Assembly: GCA_028279405.1 (NCBI GenBank) | Contig: JANQNU010000008.1 | Coordinates: 1 to 64,000 of the forward strand | Source of the DNA: Phycisphaerae bacterium | Lineage (GTDB): Bacteria; Planctomycetota; Phycisphaerae; UBA1845; Fen-1342 | DNA: 64,000 nt | Reading direction: 5' to 3' | Shown: piece after piece, positions 24,454 to 35,868 of the stretch | How the letters are laid out: each line of letters starts with the position of its first letter | How positions within the stretch are numbered: the stretch's first letter is position 1 | Program-made: the position numbers and the translations under genes | The notes under the pieces: model-generated | Databases searched by the model: none | What the model saw: the letters and a program-made list of their open reading frames with translations, nothing else | What the model was told of the DNA's origin: nothing

Positions 24454-26817
24454 CTACCCGCCGGTGACGAGGGCGACGAAGCAGTTAATGTCACCAACAG
24501 TCAGTTGGCCGTCGTCCGAGCAGTCGCCGTTGAGCAGATCGCAGTCCGGGAACGCGTTGGCGTAACCGGCCGGGTCGGTTAGTGCGAGTACGAACGGGTT
24601 GATATCGCCGACCGTTACAGCCCCGTCGCAGTTCATGTCGCCGAGGAGGCCGCCGACCTGGAACTCAAAGGCACCCATGTCAACGATCGGCGCACTTCCC
24701 TGACCGGTGTCGGCGATGTCCGGGTCGTCCACGAATCGCAGCTCGCCATCGAAGTCGAGCGGTAGGGCTTCGCTTGTGTCCTCATCACCGTCGAGGTCGG
24801 CAGTATCCTGCGGCACACGCTGGTTGTCGCCGGCGTCGATGCACGGCGAGCCGGCGCCGAGCCGGTAGTCATTGTCGCGCGCGGTGCTGGGGTCATTGTC
24901 AGTCCCGTCCGGGTCGACGAAGAGCGGGTCGGCGTCGATGTTGCCCGGCTCCCAGGTCAATCCGCCGACGGCGAAGATTGCGGCTTGCCCGCCTTGGACG
25001 TCCGAGTGTCCGACGGTCATGTTCATGTTGACGTTGATGGACGCGACAGCGCCGACAGGGGCCATCGTCCCCCACACGACGGTGTTGTAGAGCTTGGTCG
25101 GCTCTTCTACGAGGCCGGTGCAGGTGAGGAAGAATGATCCGCCACTGGCCGTTGCCGAGTTGTCGACGATCGTCGTGTTAACGAACGTCGGCGAATCGCA
25201 GGCTGCGTACACGGCGCCGCCGGTAGTGGCTTGGTTGCCGGCGATGAGCATTCCGGAGTAGGTCACGGACGACGAGTCCCAGATGGCTCCGCCTTGCTCA
25301 GCGCCGTTCTCCAGTAGCGCGCAGTTAACGTACGTCGTGTTTGCGTTCGAATTGCTGTCGGAGATCGCACCGCCGCGGAGCGCGGTGTTGCCGGCCAACA
25401 CGCAATTGCGAAAGATCCCGGCATCACCGGAGCTGTTGTTCAGGCCGCCCCCGTTTCCGAACGCTCTGTTGCGCTCGAAGGAGCACTCATCAATGAGGAA
25501 GTTGATCTCGGGGAACGCGAACCCGAATCCGCCACCGCTACCCGTGGCGAAGTTGTCTTCGAATCGGCAGCGTGTCATGCGCGTCCGTTCGCCGAAGGAC
25601 ATGCTGGCGCCGCCCCCGGCGTCGCCGGCGCGATTGTTGGTGAAGTCGCAGTCATCGATGTTGAACTCGGAGAACACGAATTGGGCGCCGCCGCCGTCAC
25701 CGTCCGTCGTGTTGTCGTCGAACGTGCATTGTCGGATGACGTGCCTGCTATCCACGCCGCCCAGGTGCGCGCCGCCGCCGCCACGCACGGCATCGTTTCC
25801 GGAGAATTGACACATTGCGACGGTTGAATCCGCCAGGAAGACGTGGAGTCCGCCGCCACTGCGATCGCTCTCGTTGTCGGTGAACGTGCAGTCCTGGACG
25901 CTGAGTTCGCTGTGGAAGATTGCGTTCACGCCGCCGCCATTGTCGACTGTCGTGTTCAGCACGAATTCGCAGTCGCTGATTGTGGCCTCACCGTTCCAGA
26001 TGAAGAGGCCACCGCCGTCATCGCCGGAGTCGTTCATACGGAAGTCGCAGTCCGTTACCTGGATGACCGATTTGTCGCCGTTGCCGCGCACGTACGCGCC
26101 GCCCCCGGAGTCGTCGGCGTTGTTGTTCTCGAAGTCGCATCCCATTATTGTCGCACTGTCGCCGGACCAGGTGAGTCCGCCGCCGTCTCCGGTGGTGTTG
26201 TTGTCGCGGAAGAGACAATTGACGAGCGTCAGTGGGTTGTTTTGCACGTATAGTCCGCCGCCGGACCGCGCCGAGTTACCGATGAACTCACAGCCGGTGA
26301 ACGTGATGGGGCCGCCGAAGCCGCAGTAGACACCGCCGCCGGGCGCGTCGGCGTTTGTGCCGTTGTTGTCCACGAACCGGCAATTGGTCACCGTCGGGTT
26401 TGATTGGAACATGCCCAGTCCGCCGCCGGCGAAGAGGCCCGCGCCGTTGGATGCGGCGCCGCCTCGGATTGTCAGACCGAGCAACATCGTGTCCGGGCCC
26501 TCGTTGTTGCGGCAAGCAACGACGGTGCCGACGTTCTGTGGAAAGCCGGGGGCATCGGGGTCGTTCCCGCCGTCGATGATCGTCGTCGCGACAATCGTGG
26601 GATCGTCCGGATCTTCGCTTCGTACGGTAATCGCCTTGCCGAGCAGGTCGATCTGTTCCATGTAGACGCCCGGCGACACGACGACGGTCTCTCCGGCCGC
26701 GGCGGCGTCGATGGCGGATTGAATCGTGGGAAACTGACTGGGTACGAGCAGTGTCTGTGCGCCAGCGTTCGCGCAGCACAGACACGCGAAACAGAGGGTA
26801 GCTACGCGGGAAATCAT
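24454..26817 (-). CDS. Secreted right-handed beta-helix protein with dockerin-like C-terminus (copy 1)
   Basis: The 787-residue exported protein opens with a signal peptide (MISRVATLCFACLCCANAGA) and a pectate-lyase-like start (IQSAIDAAAAGETVVVSPGV). More than ten parallel beta-helix coils follow, each marked by GGG plus a Cys/Asn ladder, for example NNADDSGGGAYVRG and SDRSGGGLHVFL. Near residue 660 lies a PCIDAGDN motif of the choice-of-anchor Q type. The last 62 residues are the dockerin-like module. The ATG at 26817 has GGAG seven bases upstream. It is a tandem duplicate of the next gene, which has exactly the same length. No lyase active site is evident, so an adhesive or structural surface role is more likely than catalysis. 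Confidence 0.88.
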   Translation of the reverse strand: MISRVATLCFACLCCANAGAQTLLVPSQFPTIQSAIDAAAAGETVVVSPGVYMEQIDLLGKAITVRSEDPDDPTIVATTIIDGGNDPDAPGFPQNVGTVVACRNNEGPDTMLLGLTIRGGAASNGAGLFAGGGLGMFQSNPTVTNCRFVDNNGTNADAPGGGVYCGFGGPITFTGCEFIGNSARSGGGLYVQNNPLTLVNCLFRDNNTTGDGGGLTWSGDSATIMGCDFENNNADDSGGGAYVRGNGDKSVIQVTDCDFRMNDSGDDGGGLFIWNGEATISDCEFVLNTTVDNGGGVNAIFHSELSVQDCTFTDNESDRSGGGLHVFLADSTVAMCQFSGNDAVRGGGGAHLGGVDSRHVIRQCTFDDNTTDGDGGGAQFVFSEFNIDDCDFTNNRAGDAGGGASMSFGERTRMTRCRFEDNFATGSGGGFGFAFPEINFLIDECSFERNRAFGNGGGLNNSSGDAGIFRNCVLAGNTALRGGAISDSNSNANTTYVNCALLENGAEQGGAIWDSSSVTYSGMLIAGNQATTGGAVYAACDSPTFVNTTIVDNSATASGGSFFLTCTGLVEEPTKLYNTVVWGTMAPVGAVASINVNMNMTVGHSDVQGGQAAIFAVGGLTWEPGNIDADPLFVDPDGTDNDPSTARDNDYRLGAGSPCIDAGDNQRVPQDTADLDGDEDTSEALPLDFDGELRFVDDPDIADTGQGSAPIVDMGAFEFQVGGLLGDMNCDGAVTVGDINPFVLALTDPAGYANAFPDCDLLNGDCSDDGQLTVGDINCFVALVTGG

Positions 26818-26980
26818 CACGAATCTCCGTTCCTGGATAAACAACTCTCCGGGCGTGCGGGTACTTCGTTCACGGCCGGTCGAATTACTGTCGCCGACAG
26901 CCTGCCTGCCGGCCAACTTCTTGCTCTTACACTGAGCGCGGAGCGAGCGCTTCCAGCGCGCCCGCCCGGCGCGGCGCGCT

Positions 26981-29344
26981 CTACCCCCCGGTGATGAGCG
27001 CGACGAAGCAGTTGATGTCACCGACGGTCAGTTGACCGTCGCCCGAGCAGTCGCCATTGAGCGGATCGCAGTCCGGGAACGCGGCTGCGTAGCCGGCCGG
27101 GTCGGTCAAGGCGAGTACGAACGGGTTGATATCGCCGACACTGACGACGCCGTCGCAGTTCATGTCGCCGGGCAGTCCGCCGACCTGGAACTCGAAGGCA
27201 CCCATGTCAACGATCGGCGCGCTTCCCTGGCCCGTGTCCGCCGTGTCGGGGTCGTCCACGAACCGCGGCTCGGTATCGAAGTCAAGCGGGAGCACTTCCC
27301 CTGTGTCTTCATCGCCGTCGAGGTCGGCAGTATCTTGCGGCACTCGTTGGTTGTCGCCGGCGTCGATGCACGGTGAGCCGGTGCTGAGCCGGTAGTCGTT
27401 GTCGAGCGCGGTGTTCGGATCGTTGTCCGCGCCGTCCGGATCGACGAAGAGCGGGTCGGCGTCGATGTTGCCCGGCTCCCATGTCAGCCCGCCGACGGCG
27501 AAGATTGCGGCCTGCCCGCCTTGGACGTCCGAGTGTCCGACGGTCATGTTCATGTTGACGTTGATGGTTGCGACGGCACCGACGGGGGCCATCGTTCCCC
27601 ACACCACGGTGTTGTAGAGCTTGGTCGGCTCTACTACGAGGTTGGTGCAGGTGAGGAAGAACGATCCGCCGCTGGCGTTCGCTGAATTGTCGACGATCGT
27701 GGTGTTGAGGAACGTCGGCGAATTGCACCCCACGTAGGCGGCACCGCCGGTAGTGGCGGTGTTGCCGGCGATGAGCAGGCCGGAATAGGTCACGGACGAC
27801 GAGTCCCAGATGGCTCCGCCTTGATCAGCGCCGTTCTCCAGTAGCGCGCAGTTAACGTAGGTAGTGCCTGCATCCGAGTTGACGTCGGAGATCGCACCGC
27901 CGCGTAACGCGTTGTTGCCGATGAATAGGCAATCGCGAAAGAACCCGGGATTGCCGGAGGAGTTGCTCAGGCCGCCTCCGTTCCCGAACACTCTGTTGCG
28001 CTCGAAGGAGCAATCGTCGACGATGAAGTTGAACTCGGGGAACGCGAACGCGAATCCGCCACCGTTGTCCGTGGCGAAGTTGTCTTCGAAGCGGCAACGC
28101 GTCATCCGCGTCCGTTCGCCGAAAGACATACTGGCGCCGCCGCCGTTGTCGCCCGCGCGATTGTTGGTGAAGGCGCAGTCGTCGATATTGAACTCGGAGA
28201 AGGCAAAGGCTGCTCCGCCGCCGCTGCCGGCGGTCGTGTTGTCGTCGAATGTGCATTGCCGGACGACGTGCCTGCGGTCGACGCCGCCGAGATTGACACC
28301 GCCGCCGCTGCGCTCGGCATCATTCCCCGAGAACTGGCACATTTCGATGGTCGAGTTTGCGAGGAAGACGTGCAGCCCGCCCCCGTTGCGGTCACCTTCG
28401 TTGTCCGTAAACGTGCAGCCTTGCACGCTGAGTTCGCTGTTGAAGCCCGTGTTCAGACCGGCGCCGTTCCTGCCGGACGTGTTCATCACAAAATCGCAGC
28501 CACTGACCGTGACCTCCCCGTTCGTGATCGTCAGGCCGCCGCCGTCGTCGCCGGAGTCGTTCATGCGGAAATCGCAGTCCGTCACGTTAATGATCGATGC
28601 GTCGTCGCTGCCCCGGACGTTCGCACCGCCACCCGCGCCGTCGGCGTTATTGTTCTCGAAATCGCAGCCCGTGATCGTAATGCTGCCTGCGATGATATTC
28701 GCACCGCCGCCGTTCTGGGTGGCGTTGTTGTCACGGAAGACGCAGTCGATAAGCGTGCATGGGTTGTTTTGTACGTACAGGCCGCCGCCTGATAGCGCCG
28801 AGTTGCCGATGAACTCGCACCCGCGGAACGTGATGGGACCGCCGAAGGCGCAGTAGACGCCACCACCGGTGGCGTCGACGTTCGCGCCGGTGTTGTCCAC
28901 GAACCGGCAATTGGTCACGGTCGGATTCGACTGGAACATGCCGACGCCACCGCCGGCGAAGAGGCCGGCGCTATTGGAGGCGGCACCGCCACGGATCGTA
29001 AGGCCCAGCAGCGCCGTGTCCGGGCCTTCGTTGTTGCGGCAGGCAACGACGGTGCCGACGTTCTGTGGGAAGCCGGGGGCGTCGGGGTCGTTCCCACCGT
29101 CGATGATCGTCGTTGCGACGACCGTTGGATCGTCGGGATCTTCGCTGCGCACGGTAATCGCCTTGCCGAGCAGGTCGATGTGTTCCATATAGACGCCCGG
29201 CGACACGACGACGGTCTCGCCGTCCGCGGCGGCGTCGATGGCCGATTGGATCGTGGAAAACTGACTGGGTACGAGCAGTGTCTGTGCGCCAGCGTGCGCG
29301 CAAAACAGGAACGCCGCGAACAGCGAGGCCACGCGGAACATCAT
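26981..29344 (-). CDS. Secreted right-handed beta-helix protein with dockerin-like C-terminus (copy 2)
   Basis: This 787-residue paralogue of the preceding entry aligns with it end to end without gaps that I can see, at roughly 85% identity by eye. Signal peptide (FRVASLFAAFLFCAHAGA), beta-helix coils, PCIDAGDN motif and dockerin-like tail (GDMNCDGVVSVGDINPF) are all conserved. Differences concentrate in the helix coils near residues 190-330. The two genes are separated by 163 bp and read in the same direction, this copy first. The DNA is also highly similar, which indicates a recent duplication or gene conversion. Confidence 0.88.
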   Translation of the reverse strand: MMFRVASLFAAFLFCAHAGAQTLLVPSQFSTIQSAIDAAADGETVVVSPGVYMEHIDLLGKAITVRSEDPDDPTVVATTIIDGGNDPDAPGFPQNVGTVVACRNNEGPDTALLGLTIRGGAASNSAGLFAGGGVGMFQSNPTVTNCRFVDNTGANVDATGGGVYCAFGGPITFRGCEFIGNSALSGGGLYVQNNPCTLIDCVFRDNNATQNGGGANIIAGSITITGCDFENNNADGAGGGANVRGSDDASIINVTDCDFRMNDSGDDGGGLTITNGEVTVSGCDFVMNTSGRNGAGLNTGFNSELSVQGCTFTDNEGDRNGGGLHVFLANSTIEMCQFSGNDAERSGGGVNLGGVDRRHVVRQCTFDDNTTAGSGGGAAFAFSEFNIDDCAFTNNRAGDNGGGASMSFGERTRMTRCRFEDNFATDNGGGFAFAFPEFNFIVDDCSFERNRVFGNGGGLSNSSGNPGFFRDCLFIGNNALRGGAISDVNSDAGTTYVNCALLENGADQGGAIWDSSSVTYSGLLIAGNTATTGGAAYVGCNSPTFLNTTIVDNSANASGGSFFLTCTNLVVEPTKLYNTVVWGTMAPVGAVATINVNMNMTVGHSDVQGGQAAIFAVGGLTWEPGNIDADPLFVDPDGADNDPNTALDNDYRLSTGSPCIDAGDNQRVPQDTADLDGDEDTGEVLPLDFDTEPRFVDDPDTADTGQGSAPIVDMGAFEFQVGGLPGDMNCDGVVSVGDINPFVLALTDPAGYAAAFPDCDPLNGDCSGDGQLTVGDINCFVALITGG

Positions 29345-29428: not shown

Positions 29429-30439
29429 TCAGCCGATCATCGATCGCCGACGTAGCCCGAACAGACCAACGGCACCGAGCAGCGCCAGCGTGCCGGGCTC
29501 GGGGATCGAAATCCGTTCGATGTAGAGCGGATCGCCTTCGCTCACCAGCGAGGCCGTCCCGGTGCCGACGTCGAGCACGTAGACGCCGTTGTTGTTAACC
29601 GTGAACAGGATGTTTCCGTTACCGAGTTCGTGCACGCCGAAGATGTTGTTGGTGATACCAATGTCGAGACCGAGCCAGTCGTTCAATGCCGTTCCGTCGA
29701 GCCCGAACTCGAAGATACCCACGGGGAAGAACTCGCTGGCGACCAGCAGGCCGTTGCTCGACATTGTGATTTGTTGCGGCGAGTTGAGTTCGTTGAAACC
29801 GCCCGCTTCGACGACCGTTCGCAGGTAGTTGCCGTCGAGATCGTAGACGTCGATCGTGTCATCGGCGCCGATGCCGGGCGAGTTGTTCCCATCAACGTTG
29901 GTGACGAACAGCTCGTTGCCGACCACAAGGACGTCTTCGGCCTCGCCACGCAGTTGAAAGTTGCTTTCGATGGCGCCAGTAGTCGCGTTGATCACCACCA
30001 TCGTGTCGTCGCCGGGGGCCCCGTTGGAGCTTCCGTCGTTGACGATGTAGACGCGATTACCCGCCTGGTCCATGCCGCGAATGTCGTTCAGGCCGCCGGT
30101 CCCGCCGAAATCACTCGTGCTTCCGCCGATCCGGCCGAATACCTCGAGGTTCGAGTTCACGCGGAAGATCGAGTCTTCGCCGGTGTCCGCCACCCAAAGC
30201 TCGTTGCCGACCTGAATCACATTGTTCGGCGTCCGCGCCGAATCGAAAATGCTGCCCGTCCAGGCCTCAACCAGATCGTCCATCAACAGAAAGTTCTCAT
30301 CGATTACCGAGCCGTCAAACGCGTCAAAGAGCATCACGCGATCGTCATCGGTCTCCGCCACTGCCAAAAAGTCCGCTTGTGCGGCCTGTACGATACCTGC
30401 GAGCAACACGATGCCCGCAACTGCTTCTCTCCTGGACAT
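29429..30439 (-). CDS. PEP-CTERM sorting domain protein, NHL/beta-propeller-like
   Basis: The 336-residue exported protein has a signal peptide (REAVAGIVLLAGIVQAAQA) and a C-terminal PEP-CTERM tag: SIPEPGTLALLGAVGLFGLRRR, that is a PEP motif, a hydrophobic span and an Arg cluster. Such tags are cut by exosortase, which is not in this window. The body has repeated strands with GNELWVADTGEDSIFRV, GNRVYIVNDG and GNELFVTNVDG, the pattern of a surface beta-propeller. GGAGGAG precedes the ATG at 30439. Its ligand is unknown. It is divergent from an unknown HTH-like gene across palindromic DNA. Confidence 0.85.
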   Translation of the reverse strand: MSRREAVAGIVLLAGIVQAAQADFLAVAETDDDRVMLFDAFDGSVIDENFLLMDDLVEAWTGSIFDSARTPNNVIQVGNELWVADTGEDSIFRVNSNLEVFGRIGGSTSDFGGTGGLNDIRGMDQAGNRVYIVNDGSSNGAPGDDTMVVINATTGAIESNFQLRGEAEDVLVVGNELFVTNVDGNNSPGIGADDTIDVYDLDGNYLRTVVEAGGFNELNSPQQITMSSNGLLVASEFFPVGIFEFGLDGTALNDWLGLDIGITNNIFGVHELGNGNILFTVNNNGVYVLDVGTGTASLVSEGDPLYIERISIPEPGTLALLGAVGLFGLRRRSMIG

Positions 30440-30518: not shown

Positions 30519-30553
30519 AATATCTCTAGATATTACACTGGTGATATCACTAG
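30519..30553. promoter_or_regulatory. Two palindromes in divergent promoter region
   Basis: AATATC and GATATT arms around TCTA lie at 30519-30534. The perfect 10-bp palindrome GTGATATCAC is at 30541-30550, and its flanks (CT/AG) extend the symmetry to 30538-30553. They sit between the PEP-CTERM gene and the HTH-like gene in AT-rich DNA, where a regulator could control both. The HTH-like protein itself is an obvious candidate binder, but that is inference. Confidence 0.45.
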
Positions 30554-30613
30554 AATCAATCCTAATGCTCTCGGAAAGTTTGCCAGATCGAACAGCACCG
30601 GCGAGAATTGGCT

Positions 30614-31864
30614 ATGGCTCGTATTGACCCAGCTCCCGCAAGACCGCCGCTCGATGACCTGGTAGTTGATCTGGACTCTGCTTATGCGGACTTTCGCGTT
30701 TGCGTTGCACGCGTGCTTCGCAGCATCGCGGTCGATCCGACGTCGGGAACCTCGATTGCGGCCACGCTCGGCATCAACCGCCAAACGGCCTGGCGACTCG
30801 CTACGGTTGTTGGCGAGTCGCTGTGTCCGATTGGTCTGCAGACCCTGCCGGGGGACCGCGGTCTCGCGATATTCCTCCGCGCTTGTGTGGTGCACGAAGC
30901 GGACAAGGGTGCCATCGCCGCGCTGGAGTCGGCGATGAAGACACTCGCGAGTGCGGTCGCGCATCACGCCGGCGACCGCGCGTTCCTCGAGTTGATGACT
31001 GCCGCCTGGGCGCCGGACGGCCTCGATCGACGAACGGCAGCGTTGCGCCGCGACGGCTGTCGCGCCCAGAGCGCGCTGCTCGGCGTGAATGCCCGCCATC
31101 AGATTCGCGGCGCGATCCACGGTGCGTCGCGCCGTGGCGACCCTACGCGCCTTTCGCTTGCGAGCTACCAGATCTTCACCGACTTGGTCCGGCTTCGGCG
31201 CGATCGCGCCTGTCGCATTTTCTTTCTGGATGCGCCCACCAACGACGACGGCACGCTCGGTATCGCGATCGAGGACCTGCCGCAGCACGTTCGCGAGCGG
31301 TACGAGCTGGACGAGGAGCTGTCGAGTATCACGGGCAACGACGTCGAAATCTCGACCTCGGGCAACCGCGGCATCGTGACACTCGCTGCCGGCCCGCTGG
31401 GTCGGTCGGCTTCGGCTACGATCGCCTTCACCGGATGTACGACGTGGGAGCCGGACCGGTACCTGAACCGACGTAACCTCATCGCACAATCGGCCGTCAG
31501 TTCGCTGGTGCCCACCGAAACCCTCTACATTGACTACCTGATGCCGCGATCGCTGGCCGAAAGCAAACAGCTTCACAAGGCCGTGGAAGTGTTGTGCTAC
31601 GACGCTGCACTCGGCCTGCCGGAGCTGCCGGCAACCAACGACGATCCGGCGTTCCTGTTTGAGCTCGAATCTCCGGAAGTCGTTGGAATGACAGACTTTA
31701 CGGGAGACGTCGACATCCCCATTCTGGCCGAAGTGGTCGATAAGGCCGCACAACGGATCGGCCATCGGCTTGAGGATCTGGTCGGTGTCCGGTTCAAGTG
31801 CCCGTACGTGATGTCTCCCACGAGCTTCATCGTGAGCCGCAAGCCCCCAGTTGCGCCGGACTGA
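30614..31864 (+). CDS. Uncharacterised HTH-like protein (paralogue A)
   Basis: I do not recognise the family. The 416-residue cytoplasmic-looking protein has an N-terminal helix-turn-helix-like segment (SIAATLGINRQTAWRLATVV) at about residues 47-66. A helical stretch to about 200 and a mixed alpha/beta C-terminal part follow. No catalytic motif or membrane segment is visible. It is a distant paralogue of the convergent gene at 32091-33317: both are just over 400 residues, both begin with a winged-helix-like region, and both end with a VDK/VDM...RIG/RLG...F motif. The ATG at 30614 is preferred over a TTG six bases upstream; the ribosome binding site is weak. A DNA-binding regulator is the best guess. 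Confidence 0.7.
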   Translation: MARIDPAPARPPLDDLVVDLDSAYADFRVCVARVLRSIAVDPTSGTSIAATLGINRQTAWRLATVVGESLCPIGLQTLPGDRGLAIFLRACVVHEADKGAIAALESAMKTLASAVAHHAGDRAFLELMTAAWAPDGLDRRTAALRRDGCRAQSALLGVNARHQIRGAIHGASRRGDPTRLSLASYQIFTDLVRLRRDRACRIFFLDAPTNDDGTLGIAIEDLPQHVRERYELDEELSSITGNDVEISTSGNRGIVTLAAGPLGRSASATIAFTGCTTWEPDRYLNRRNLIAQSAVSSLVPTETLYIDYLMPRSLAESKQLHKAVEVLCYDAALGLPELPATNDDPAFLFELESPEVVGMTDFTGDVDIPILAEVVDKAAQRIGHRLEDLVGVRFKCPYVMSPTSFIVSRKPPVAPD

Positions 31865-32025
31865 GCCGGCGCGCTCCCGACCGATCGCCATCTGGCTCAC
31901 TCCTCTCCCGGACCCACGACCCAAGGGCCAACTCACACCTCACAACCAGGCGACTACCCCGGGCGCCTTCGCGTGTGACCCTACGCTACGAAACAGCCTA
32001 GCAAGTCGGCCTGGACAACGCAATG

Positions 32026-32042
32026 ACATATCCAGGATATGT
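32026..32042. repeat. Inverted repeat between convergent HTH-like genes
   Basis: Perfect 8-bp arms ACATATCC and GGATATGT surround a single central A. The surrounding 32020-32090 segment is much AT-richer than its neighbours. It could be a regulator-binding site, related in its GATAT core to the palindromes upstream of paralogue A, or a weak bidirectional terminator. Confidence 0.4.
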
Positions 32043-32090
32043 TCATGATCTTTCGAGGATGTATTCTAGAAAATTATAGGACTTTCTGGA

Positions 32091-33317
32091 TCATTCGGGA
32101 GGGTTGAAGATCGCGGAGACTTGCGTGCCGTAAACCGGATAGTCGATGCGATAGCGGAAGGCTCGAAATCGTGAACTGTCCCACCCGAGCCGGTTGCAGA
32201 CGTGCTGGACCATGTCGACGTAGTGCGCAACTTCGGCCACGCGGAGGCGTTCCAGGGCGCCCATCTCCTGCATCGGGCCGGCGGTTTCGACTCGATCGAT
32301 ATCGCGCTCGGGGTCGCAGGCGTCGACCACTCCGCGACCGGTGGTGTCATACATTCGCAGCTCGGGCTTGACGCCGGGCCACAGATCTTCGTGGACCAGC
32401 ACGTCGAAGAGCACCATCTTGACGGGCAGATCCAGGACGTAGCCCGGCATCGCGGGACGGTCATCAACGCCTTTTCGAGTCGGGTAGCGCCGGGGTGTGA
32501 TGTCCCCGAAACAGAGGTCCACCAACGAACCCACGCCGACGCGATCGCCTTTGAGCAGGTAGTGGAAGACCGTCCCGCCCGGACGCACCTCGAACTCGGG
32601 CGTCGGCCGCGAAGAGAACTCCGGGATGATGGGGACGGGATGCTCCGGGTCCACGGGGCGACCGTCGAGCGCGTAATGTTGCGACCACACTGGCGGCGCC
32701 ACGCTACAGCCATGGAGGAAGCTGATCGGCGTGCCGGGACGCAGCCGTTTCATGCGAACCATGCCGGCCACAGCAGCGCGGTCCGCCCAATCCGGATCTT
32801 CTCGACTCGGATGGATAAGCGCCACGGAGAAATCGACATCGGCGGCAACGCCCTTCAGATTGCTCATGGCCCGAAAGGCGGTTTGCCGATTGGCAAGTTC
32901 GAATTCGAGCCGCGCATCCGGGAGCCATCCCGTAATCGCGGCGTTCAGCTCTTGCCAGGTGCCGACTTCGGTTGCGACAACATGCTCGAGCGTCGAAAGG
33001 GCTTGATTGGCACGTTCGATGAGCACCGGATCGACATGTACGACCGCAGCTGCCGACAGCAACTGCCGAATCCCGTTCAGCCCCGGCATGCGAAAGAGCG
33101 TTGCAAGTGGGTCCGCCAGCCGAACTGCACGCAACAGCCGACTCGAAAGCGTTGGGTCGAGCTTCAGAACCCGTCGAAACTCTGATGGCTTCTTGACCGC
33201 TACCGGCACTTCCTGAATGACCGCGTTAACGGCCTCGCGCAAATCTTCCGCTACGCTGATGAGCCGTTCTTGTAGCGACCCGCCATTTTTTTGAGTCGTT
33301 ATCTCCACCATATACAC
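32091..33317 (-). CDS. Uncharacterised HTH-like protein (paralogue B)
   Basis: The 408-residue protein is not one I recognise. The N-terminal 90 residues are helical with a possible helix-turn-helix (SEFRRVLKLDPTLSSRLLRA). A middle region (NLKGVAADVDFSVALIHPSR, then VRMKRLRPGTPISFLHGCS) aligns with the middle of paralogue A. The end (VAEVAHYVDMVQHVCNRLGW, then FRYRIDYPVYGTQV) aligns with A's end. It lies tail to tail with A, 226 bp apart, and divergent from an MFS-like gene. The start is uncertain: ATG codons at 33317 and 33311 are both possible, and no clear ribosome binding site is seen. Confidence 0.7.
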   Translation of the reverse strand: MYMVEITTQKNGGSLQERLISVAEDLREAVNAVIQEVPVAVKKPSEFRRVLKLDPTLSSRLLRAVRLADPLATLFRMPGLNGIRQLLSAAAVVHVDPVLIERANQALSTLEHVVATEVGTWQELNAAITGWLPDARLEFELANRQTAFRAMSNLKGVAADVDFSVALIHPSREDPDWADRAAVAGMVRMKRLRPGTPISFLHGCSVAPPVWSQHYALDGRPVDPEHPVPIIPEFSSRPTPEFEVRPGGTVFHYLLKGDRVGVGSLVDLCFGDITPRRYPTRKGVDDRPAMPGYVLDLPVKMVLFDVLVHEDLWPGVKPELRMYDTTGRGVVDACDPERDIDRVETAGPMQEMGALERLRVAEVAHYVDMVQHVCNRLGWDSSRFRAFRYRIDYPVYGTQVSAIFNPPE

Positions 33318-33547
33318 ATTATGTCAACCGAGGTGTGCAACGTCGAGAGGCGATTCGCGCCAACCGTCGCGATTCCCGCAACCTGCGCCCCTGCGCCGTT
33401 TGGCGCGTCGGTGGCAAGACAGCAGACGGATTGCCCTCTATGATCGACAATGGGTGGCTTGGACCTACCGCCACGTGCGGCTGCCGATGGCTTGGCGCAG
33501 CCACGGTACCGTTTCCTCCCTCGACGACCGAGGATTGCAGCCCCAGT

Positions 33548-34915
33548 ATGCAGCGTTTGCTTGGTTTTTTTCAGACGACAGATATTCCCCCGCTGAGTCG
33601 ACGAAACTACCTCCCCGAACTACAGCACATGGCGCTCTGGGGAACCGTCGTGGGAGCAGTCGAGGGAAACCTGGCCGGGATCGTGGCCAGCAAGACCTTC
33701 GGAGCGTCCGCATTCCTGACAACGGTCGTCTGCACGCTCCCGATCGTCATGAACGCGATCAACTTCCTCTGGGCGGGGCTCATTCGCGGTCGGTCGAAGA
33801 TGCCGCTCCTGTTTCTCATCAGTGGCGGTGTTTGCCTGAGCCTCCTGTCCGTATTCTGGACACCGAGGAATGCGGAGTGGGCCGCGCCGCTCTTCGCTGC
33901 ACAAATGGCCGCGGCACATTTCTTCTTGTCGGGACTCTTGCTGGTCCGCACTGCCATCTGGCAAGCCAACTACCCGGAAGCACATCGGGGACAGGTCGCC
34001 GCCCGGCTTCAGGCCCTGCGCCTGTTTACAACGATGATCGCCAGCACCGTCTTCAGCGGCCTCTTCGACCGGCACCCGGAAGCGTACTTCCTGGTCTACC
34101 CGCTGGTCGGATTCGCCGGTCTCGCGGCCCTGATCCCGCTGCGAACACTGCGCATCCGGCGCGAGCGACCGACGCTCGTCCGCTATGCCTCGCAGAACCA
34201 CTCCAGGACCGCGAGCTTCGGCACGGCACTCGTCGCGATCGTTGCCATCTTGCGGCAGGATCGAGTCTTCGCTCGATACATGGCGGGCCAGTTCCTCCTC
34301 GGCTCGGCAAACTTTTTCACCGAGCCCGTACTCCTCATCCTCCTCACCCAACGACTGGGGTACGGCTACCTGATATCGACATTCCTGATGACGATCCTGC
34401 CGCTGCTGCTCCAGATCGCCTTCATGCGCGTCTGGGCCCCTTTCTATGATCGTGTCGGTGTCGTGCGGTTCCGCGTCTTCCAGAGCGCTCTCTGGTTCTT
34501 CGCCTACACGCTCGTCGCGGCGGGCGTCTCCTGCGTGCTAACTGGCTCCACCGCACTGACCGCGGTGGGCGTGAGTCTCATCGTCGGTTACCGAATCCTC
34601 TTCGGCGTGAGCCGCGCCGGCGGCCAGATCGCATGGACGCTGGGCCACCTGCACTTCGCTAGGCCGGACCAGTCAGAACTCTATCAGACAGTCCACATCG
34701 TGCTCACCGGCATCCGCGGGTTGATCATGCCATTGCTCGGCTTGTTCATGTTCCAAGTCCTTGGCGGAGCCTCATTTGTGGTCGTATTGTCGTTCGTCGC
34801 ACTGGCCTACGGCATCTTCCTGCGACTCGCGCAGGACGATCGCGGCGTCATTTCCCGAGAGGAAGCGTGCGCCGACGAGCTCACACCCACCGGAACCCCG
34901 AGCAACGTGTCCTAA
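33548..34915 (+). CDS. MFS-like multi-spanning membrane protein
   Basis: The protein has about 12 hydrophobic segments across 455 residues, matching a major facilitator superfamily transporter. An early motif (YLPELQHMALWGTVVGAVEG) is followed by paired six-helix halves separated by a basic loop near residues 190-215 (LRIRRERPTLVRYASQN). I chose the ATG at 33548 because membrane homology starts soon after it, and the upstream extension looks non-coding. The substrate is unknown. It lies divergent from HTH-like paralogue B, which may regulate it. Confidence 0.75.
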   Translation: MQRLLGFFQTTDIPPLSRRNYLPELQHMALWGTVVGAVEGNLAGIVASKTFGASAFLTTVVCTLPIVMNAINFLWAGLIRGRSKMPLLFLISGGVCLSLLSVFWTPRNAEWAAPLFAAQMAAAHFFLSGLLLVRTAIWQANYPEAHRGQVAARLQALRLFTTMIASTVFSGLFDRHPEAYFLVYPLVGFAGLAALIPLRTLRIRRERPTLVRYASQNHSRTASFGTALVAIVAILRQDRVFARYMAGQFLLGSANFFTEPVLLILLTQRLGYGYLISTFLMTILPLLLQIAFMRVWAPFYDRVGVVRFRVFQSALWFFAYTLVAAGVSCVLTGSTALTAVGVSLIVGYRILFGVSRAGGQIAWTLGHLHFARPDQSELYQTVHIVLTGIRGLIMPLLGLFMFQVLGGASFVVVLSFVALAYGIFLRLAQDDRGVISREEACADELTPTGTPSNVS

Positions 34916-35157: not shown

Positions 35158-35868
35158 ATGAAGCGCATTCTTGGTGTGGCCCTGAGTGGCCTGCTGGCTA
35201 GCTCGGCGTTTGCCGCGGGTCTCAGCGAGATCCGTATCGATCAGCCCGGCACCGATCTGGACGAGTACTTCGAGATTTCCGGCACGCCCGGCGAGTCGCT
35301 TACCGGCCTGACCTACATCGTCATCGGCGATGACGGTGGCGACGGCAGCGGTAGCAACGGCAAGCGCAGTGGCGCGATCGAGGCCGTGATCTCGCTCGAT
35401 GGCCTCAGCATCCCGGCTGACGGCTTCTTTCTCGCGGCGGAGGGTAGCTTCGGCGATCCCGGCGGCCTGGGCCTGAGCGGCTCGGTCGACCTGACCACCG
35501 ACCTGAACTTCGAGAACAGCGACAATGTCAGCCACCTGCTGGTCATGGGCTTCACCGGCGCCGACGGCGACGTGCTCGACACCGACCGTGACGGCACGCT
35601 CGACATTACGCCGTGGACCTCGGTCGTTGACGGCATCTCGCTCGTCGAGACGGTCAACCCGCCGGACAGCAACACCAATGAGTGGAACTACGGCTTCGGC
35701 GGCGGCATCGGCCCGGCCGGCGATTTCGTCCCGGGTCACATCTTCCGCGACGATGCCGGCGCCTGGCAGATCGGTAACTTCGGCGGTGGCGATGACACCC
35801 CCGGCGTTCCGGAGCCGGCCTCGCTGATGCTGCTTGCGTTGGGCGCCGTCGCGCTGCGCCGTCGCTAG
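35158..35868 (+). CDS. PEP-CTERM sorting domain protein, lamin-tail-like
   Basis: The 236-residue exported protein has a signal peptide (KRILGVALSGLLASSAFA) and a C-terminal tag VPEPASLMLLALGAVALRRR, a canonical PEP-CTERM signal. The N-terminal part (LSEIRIDQPGTDLDEYFEIS) resembles the lamin-tail-like fold common in secreted planctomycete proteins. The rest is Gly/Asp rich and acidic, typical of surface proteins. AAGGAGGAG gives a strong start, and a good terminator follows. Function is unknown. Confidence 0.85.
   Translation: MKRILGVALSGLLASSAFAAGLSEIRIDQPGTDLDEYFEISGTPGESLTGLTYIVIGDDGGDGSGSNGKRSGAIEAVISLDGLSIPADGFFLAAEGSFGDPGGLGLSGSVDLTTDLNFENSDNVSHLLVMGFTGADGDVLDTDRDGTLDITPWTSVVDGISLVETVNPPDSNTNEWNYGFGGGIGPAGDFVPGHIFRDDAGAWQIGNFGGGDDTPGVPEPASLMLLALGAVALRRR

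Follow-up and report, generated by a model that had tools for sequence, protein, structure and literature searches.

The effector part of LysR-type transcription regulators has a periplasmic-binding-protein-like fold, and PrsK/PrsR is a sigma-54 histidine kinase/response regulator pair. The control of PEP-CTERM genes by PrsK/PrsR and RpoN is treated in two papers (PMC1569441 and PMC9850573), and a search of the literature on regulators of PEP-CTERM genes in planctomycetes returned nothing relevant. In ChiS, a beta-sheet is inserted between helices 2 and 3 of the DNA-binding domain, which is located at the C terminus of the protein (PMC8092284). The genome analyzed here contains about 70 credible PEP-CTERM genes and two exosortases, and we found no paper on the gene-by-gene control of such genes in planctomycetes. 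Its best match to the PrsK profile (TIGR02916) scored 106 bits against a cutoff of 300 and covered the C-terminal kinase part only. Two genes in the window (the whole stretch of 64,000 nucleotides that was analyzed) encode members of a protein family whose genes are arranged back to back with those of exported surface proteins and which apparently control these neighbors via a palindromic switch in the DNA between them.

The preliminary description of this locus reported two unrecognized proteins of 416 and 408 residues that face each other tail to tail across 226 bp, and the open reading frames bear this out. Paralogue A (30614-31864, forward strand, 416 amino acids) starts at an ATG at 30614 in a frame that also opens at a TTG at 30608, and paralogue B (32091-33317, reverse strand, 408 amino acids) starts either at a GTG at 33317 or at an ATG at 33311; the 226-bp gap separates their stop codons. 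An antisense open reading frame over A (30533-31936, reverse strand) was judged to be a high-GC artifact. As had been proposed, A and B are true homologs, because they match in BLASTP (25% identity over 303 residues, E = 3e-8) and because one family profile matches both alike at an E value of 4e-101 or better (3.5e-101 for A and 1.5e-144 for B). Profile searches had been suggested for both proteins, and Pfam, NCBIfam, and PADLOC describe neither of them, with nothing above chance in any of the three libraries. The 26 further relatives (28 members with A and B) likewise gave nothing above chance against Pfam and NCBIfam. The best matches in a profile search of PDB sequences were a designed bundle and ribosomal protein S25e, at about 1e-3 to 1e-2, and winged-helix profiles gave chance-level matches only (IclR 5tjj, E = 0.11; MarR_2, E = 0.11; BirA, E = 0.1); the matches from the PDB-sequence search (designed bundle, S25e, and IclR 5tjj) were excluded as evidence of membership. 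A and B belong to an undescribed family of the Planctomycetota.

The helix-turn-helix (HTH)-like N termini noted earlier are backed by alignment and by two AlphaFold models. The model of B (pLDDT 91.6) consists of an all-helical N-terminal part (residues 15 to 155) and a beta-rich C-terminal part (residues 157 to 404), and the N-terminal part folded alone reached a pLDDT of 92. Helices 44-51 and 55-66 of B are joined by a three-residue turn and form a normal HTH in the predicted models (residues 44 to 66, PSEFRRVLKLDPTLSSRLLRAVR, encoded at 33120-33188 on the reverse strand); a beta wing after the recognition helix is absent, and no strands are predicted in residues 1 to 155. The HTH of A (GTSIAATLGINRQTAWRLATVV, encoded at 30746-30811 on the forward strand) was placed by alignment to these two helices. 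The top structural match of the N-terminal domain was the ChiS DNA-binding domain (7kpo), with a Z score of 8.2 over 93 residues, which is under the trustworthy level for a helical fold and serves only as a lead. Foldseek returned zero matches at an E value of 0.001 for the N-terminal domain alone, and no winged-helix regulator stands out in the structural match lists, which does not exclude winged-helix kinship. C-terminal residues 150 to 407 have a predicted fold like that of the M1 aminopeptidase saddle domain, OST1, and 3kd4 (Z about 9 to 11.5); the M1-saddle-like fold is shared over 156 to 184 residues of the predicted model, with no match in sequence. The HExxH motif is absent in 108 of 109 members, and the model of B ends with the beta-domain and lacks a catalytic domain. 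Structure prediction, which had also been suggested as a check, thus gave an HTH at the N terminus of B and no M1 catalytic domain, and the members of the family are predicted to combine an N-terminal HTH domain with a C-terminal M1-saddle-like beta-domain.

The family profile found exactly 11 members at 10 dispersed places in the 5.63-Mb genome. Members were present in 21 of the 25 genomes of the same taxonomic family (this genome included), in 1 of 16 genomes from other families of the order, and in 37 of 392 genomes sampled across the phylum, and the named records that contained them were mostly Phycisphaerae/Planctomycetota metagenome assemblies. A degenerate-DNA scan was run with a four-row subset, since the diversity of profiles A1 and A2 was too great for it. 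Two non-planctomycete records also held members, namely, a 5.5-kb contig of Ideonella azotifigens (L060), in which the good match is confined to the C-terminal third, and an "Actinomycetes" metagenome-assembled genome (L052); contamination or misbinning is the likely source of both. The family tree, built from 109 members, places B with three orthologs (L027, L047, and L048) in one ancient clade and A, as a long branch, in another. A and B are therefore not the products of a tandem duplication, an origin that the tree rules out. The preliminary description regarded the pair as a self-contained module and proposed a survey of whether the two genes are always adjacent. They are not: none of the fetched B orthologs has an A or any other second member alongside, and this, the different clades of A and B, and the 9 other members dispersed in the genome all speak against such a module. 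Two family members lie within a few kilobases of each other at L049, L050, L051, and L096; local pairs recur, and the identity of the pair does not.

Upstream of A, and divergent from it, is a PEP-CTERM gene (29429-30439, reverse strand; PF07589, E = 1e-4, and TIGR02595) for an exosortase-sorted, exported protein, with an ATG at 30439 and GGAGGAG upstream. This gene was correctly placed in the preliminary description and was taken as incidental; it is the key partner of the locus and the probable target of A. The MFS-like gene that had been noted on the other flank is divergent from B (33548-34915, forward strand, in a frame that opens at 33335); the match of the frame (33335-34912) to PF07690 is weak (E = 1.6e-6, below the curated cutoff), and the gene is a possible target of B. 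A second PEP-CTERM gene (35158-35868, forward strand; PF07589, E = 7e-5) lies past the MFS gene. Two adjacent genes elsewhere in the window (24454-27021 and 26981-29344, both reverse strand) code for large exported proteins that are nearly identical to each other and that have Gly-rich, beta-helix-like repeats and a dockerin-like tail; they probably arose when a surface-protein gene was duplicated locally and recently.

In the genome as a whole, 9 of the 10 family places have a PEP-CTERM motif within 1.2 kb (binomial p = 2.5e-10, with the 2.5-kb neighborhoods of PEP-CTERM motifs, 6.7% of the genome, as the background), and one member, C92:85149, has zero PEP-CTERM genes within 4 kb. A divergent upstream neighbor with a PEP-CTERM motif or dockerin tail was found for 17 of 39 held-out members compared with 2 of 85 control genes. 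Over all loci, the upstream neighbor was divergent at 83 of 102, and a signal-peptide-like start was present in 61 of 82 divergent partners versus 43 of 117 control genes. Simple custom scripts called the genes at these loci and tested them for PEP-CTERM motifs, dockerin tails, and signal peptides. Most partners show no relation to one another (97 of 3,321 pairs match), whereas nearly all of the regulators match (3,257 of 3,321 pairs), and the tie is thus to a class of genes and not to a single gene. A similar protein of ~676 amino acids (L019:108-2138 and L048:3793-5826), with a RVLLIGWDAADWK-like start and by eye resembling the AlkP superfamily, adjoins members of two different clades.

An unsupervised motif search in 70 upstream regions yielded one 21-bp palindrome, aGAAgTTTCccgGAAAcTTCt, with a log-likelihood of 216 compared to 45 to 58 on shuffled sequences, the matrix having been built with a forced palindrome for the real and shuffled sets alike. 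Matrix sites of at least 8 bits were present in 48 of the 70 upstream regions and in 6 of 71 downstream regions. Among the 39 members outside the training set, the motif was found in 18, versus 6 of 95 control promoters (p = 3e-7). The held-out promoters are AT-richer than the controls (GC of 0.57 versus 0.65), and when only regions with a GC below 0.58 are considered, the motif is found in 12 of 24 held-out regions and 1 of 10 controls. About half of the held-out members have no good matrix match, perhaps because the sites differ by clade. By a generic test of the longest inverted repeat, upstream and downstream regions could not be told apart (p = 0.10); the sequence-specific motif alone distinguished them. 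A further signal at 22 bp suggests extended arrays of alternating half-sites; an 11-bp signal is partly inherent in the matrix. The −35-like hexamer TGTCAA abuts the site on the side of the neighbor in 18% of cases versus 2% at random positions, and TTGACA abuts it on the side of the regulator in 11% versus 3%, the latter arrangement being present in the HRKLAWQ clade.

The palindromes with a GATAT or ATATC core named in the preliminary description are all present, in intergenic DNA that is indeed AT-rich (GC of 0.47 between A and the PEP-CTERM gene and 0.57 between A and B, compared with 0.63 for the window). The palindrome AATATCTCTAGATATT (AATATC-TCTA-GATATT, 30519-30534) lies in the divergent promoter region of A and the PEP-CTERM gene and is a candidate operator of A, with GTGATATCAC (30541-30550), 19 bp away from center to center, as a second candidate operator element. 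The best family-matrix match upstream of A, CTAATGCTCTCGGAAAGTTTG (30562-30582), is an imperfect palindrome with a modest score of 10.8 bits. Between the convergent genes A and B lies ACATATCCAGGATATGT (ACATATCC-A-GGATATGT, 32026-32042), a candidate operator of the B-clade type; beside it, TTCTAGAA (32064-32071) may represent extra half-sites, a weak indication that alone is within chance. By themselves, the window palindromes exceed chance only modestly: dinucleotide shuffles match the best inverted repeat of the A/PEP-CTERM intergenic region in 4% of cases and that of the A-B intergenic region in 2.5%. The family-wide motif test backs palindromic sites far better than the window does. AATATCTCTAGATATT and ACATATCCAGGATATGT each have one perfect copy in the genome, and this single-copy state and the family motif test make the earlier proposal that the palindromes are binding sites a plausible one.

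Clear counterparts of CATATC-N3-GATATG occur directly upstream of B orthologs in L048 (CATGTCTCAGATATG) and L046 (CGTGTCTGGGACATG), with a weaker counterpart in L047 (CATATCCGAGAGAAT), and the pattern of the B-clade site can be written as CATRTC-N3-GAYATG-like. Because of these counterparts, the palindrome at 32026-32042 is best read as the putative operator of B. It is situated 49 bp past the B stop codon, while the counterparts in L046, L047, and L048 are upstream of the ortholog; it is possible that B has been inverted or that an unseen transcript accounts for the downstream position. The intergenic region between B and the MFS gene contains nothing operator-like, with a matrix score of 0.4 bits upstream of B.

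Across the family, the operator sequence appears to follow the recognition helix. Members with a DKVLxSR helix have GTTTC-N3-GAAAC in nearly every case, those with NKDLxSR have ATTCTC-N3-GAGAAT, those with HRKLAWQ have TTTC-N1-GAAA, and those with HRTLxxR often have ATGCTC..GAGCA. Once C-terminal similarity is allowed for, the partial correlation between site and helix is small (0.10) but beyond permutation (p = 0.024), and it controls only partly for common descent and clade history. This apparent coupling provides indirect support for sequence-specific DNA binding.

From the homology, predicted domain make-up, adjacency, shared palindromic motif, and tracking of motif and helix computed here, we infer DNA binding, dimerization, a sign of regulation, and a role for the C-terminal domain. 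It is likely that the proteins of this planctomycete family are local HTH regulators, each with a palindromic operator of its own, and are dedicated to neighboring exported-protein genes. A and B would be sequence-specific transcription regulators, and this part of the preliminary description, which had suggested a regulatory role, is still the best reading of the two proteins. The N-terminal HTH would bind the palindromic operator aGAAgTTTCccgGAAAcTTCt as a dimer, and the operator would often continue as a series of alternating half-sites spaced by roughly one turn of the DNA. Located between the regulator gene and a divergent gene for a PEP-CTERM or dockerin-tailed exported protein, the operator when bound would control the neighbor and probably the regulator's own gene as well. 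A would control the PEP-CTERM gene at 29429-30439, and ACATATCCAGGATATGT would be the site of B. Each paralogue would pair a distinct recognition helix with a distinct site and thus form a private, local switch for a single surface-protein gene. Activation is slightly favored over repression because some of the sites, a small fraction, abut the −35-like hexamer of the divergent promoter. The M1-saddle-like beta-domain may be the sensing or oligomerization part. A more speculative and rather doubtful extension is that it senses when the partner protein is exported or is processed by exosortase and so closes a feedback loop. The surface repertoire would then be set gene by gene through a large family of one-gene switches, in which recognition helix and operator tie each regulator to one exported surface protein.

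It could be argued that these proteins are autoregulators only, which bind their own promoters and have exported-protein genes as neighbors only by coincidence, since variable islands are where such genes collect. Every count of the site was made upstream of the regulator's own gene, the member at C92:85149 lacks a PEP-CTERM gene within 4 kb, and the HRKLAWQ clade has its TTGACA on the side of the regulator, all as this explanation would have it. However, the divergent orientation of the neighbor at most loci means that the two genes share their intergenic DNA, and some sites abut a −35-like hexamer of the neighbor; we therefore regard control of the regulator alone as unlikely.

It is much less probable still that A and B are DNA-binding proteins that recombine or invert surface-gene cassettes, or that serve plasmid- or phage-like maintenance, with the palindromes as their sites. 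An inversion would leave the site of B on the unexpected side relative to its orthologs, as is seen here, and members do sometimes occur in local pairs, but there are zero matches to recombinase or nuclease families among the 28 members, the predicted C-terminal fold resembles a noncatalytic beta-domain, and the longer window palindromes are single and not paired in the genome. The defense-like module of the preliminary description, or a toxin-antitoxin module, would account for two adjoining unknown genes with palindromes, yet no PADLOC family matched A, B, or the MFS gene, the A-B pair is not conserved, and members mostly occur singly and are tied to exported-protein genes, which makes this the most improbable of the explanations.

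Dedicated local regulators of exported-protein genes, the reading that we prefer, would provide a handle on the control of surface proteins, with a regulator adjoining each of several exported-protein genes and with a predicted binding site. The naturally occurring pairs of recognition helix and operator, such as DKVLxSR with GTTTCCnGGAAAC and NKDLxSR with ATTCTCnnnGAGAAT, offer material for studying how HTH specificity diverges. The pairing of an HTH with an M1-saddle-like domain is not described in the family libraries searched. More generally, the layout is a familiar one, but our searches of libraries and papers turned up no description of the protein family, of the way its domains are paired, or of its link to PEP-CTERM genes. 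As in M1 aminopeptidases, a saddle-like beta-domain is predicted, but the family lacks their catalytic domain. Unlike the domain of ChiS, that of the family is N-terminal, and in the predicted model it has a normal short turn with strands absent between the two helices. A close arrangement is that of LysR-type regulators, in which the regulator gene is also back to back with its target, the operator lies in the shared intergenic region, and there is one regulator per target with autoregulation likely. The family differs from these regulators in that no sequence relation was found, in its wingless HTH, and in its effector part, which is predicted to be an M1-saddle-like beta-domain instead of a periplasmic-binding-protein-like fold. 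With PrsK/PrsR it has in common that the regulated genes would encode PEP-CTERM exported proteins; unlike that system, the family appears to act gene by gene.
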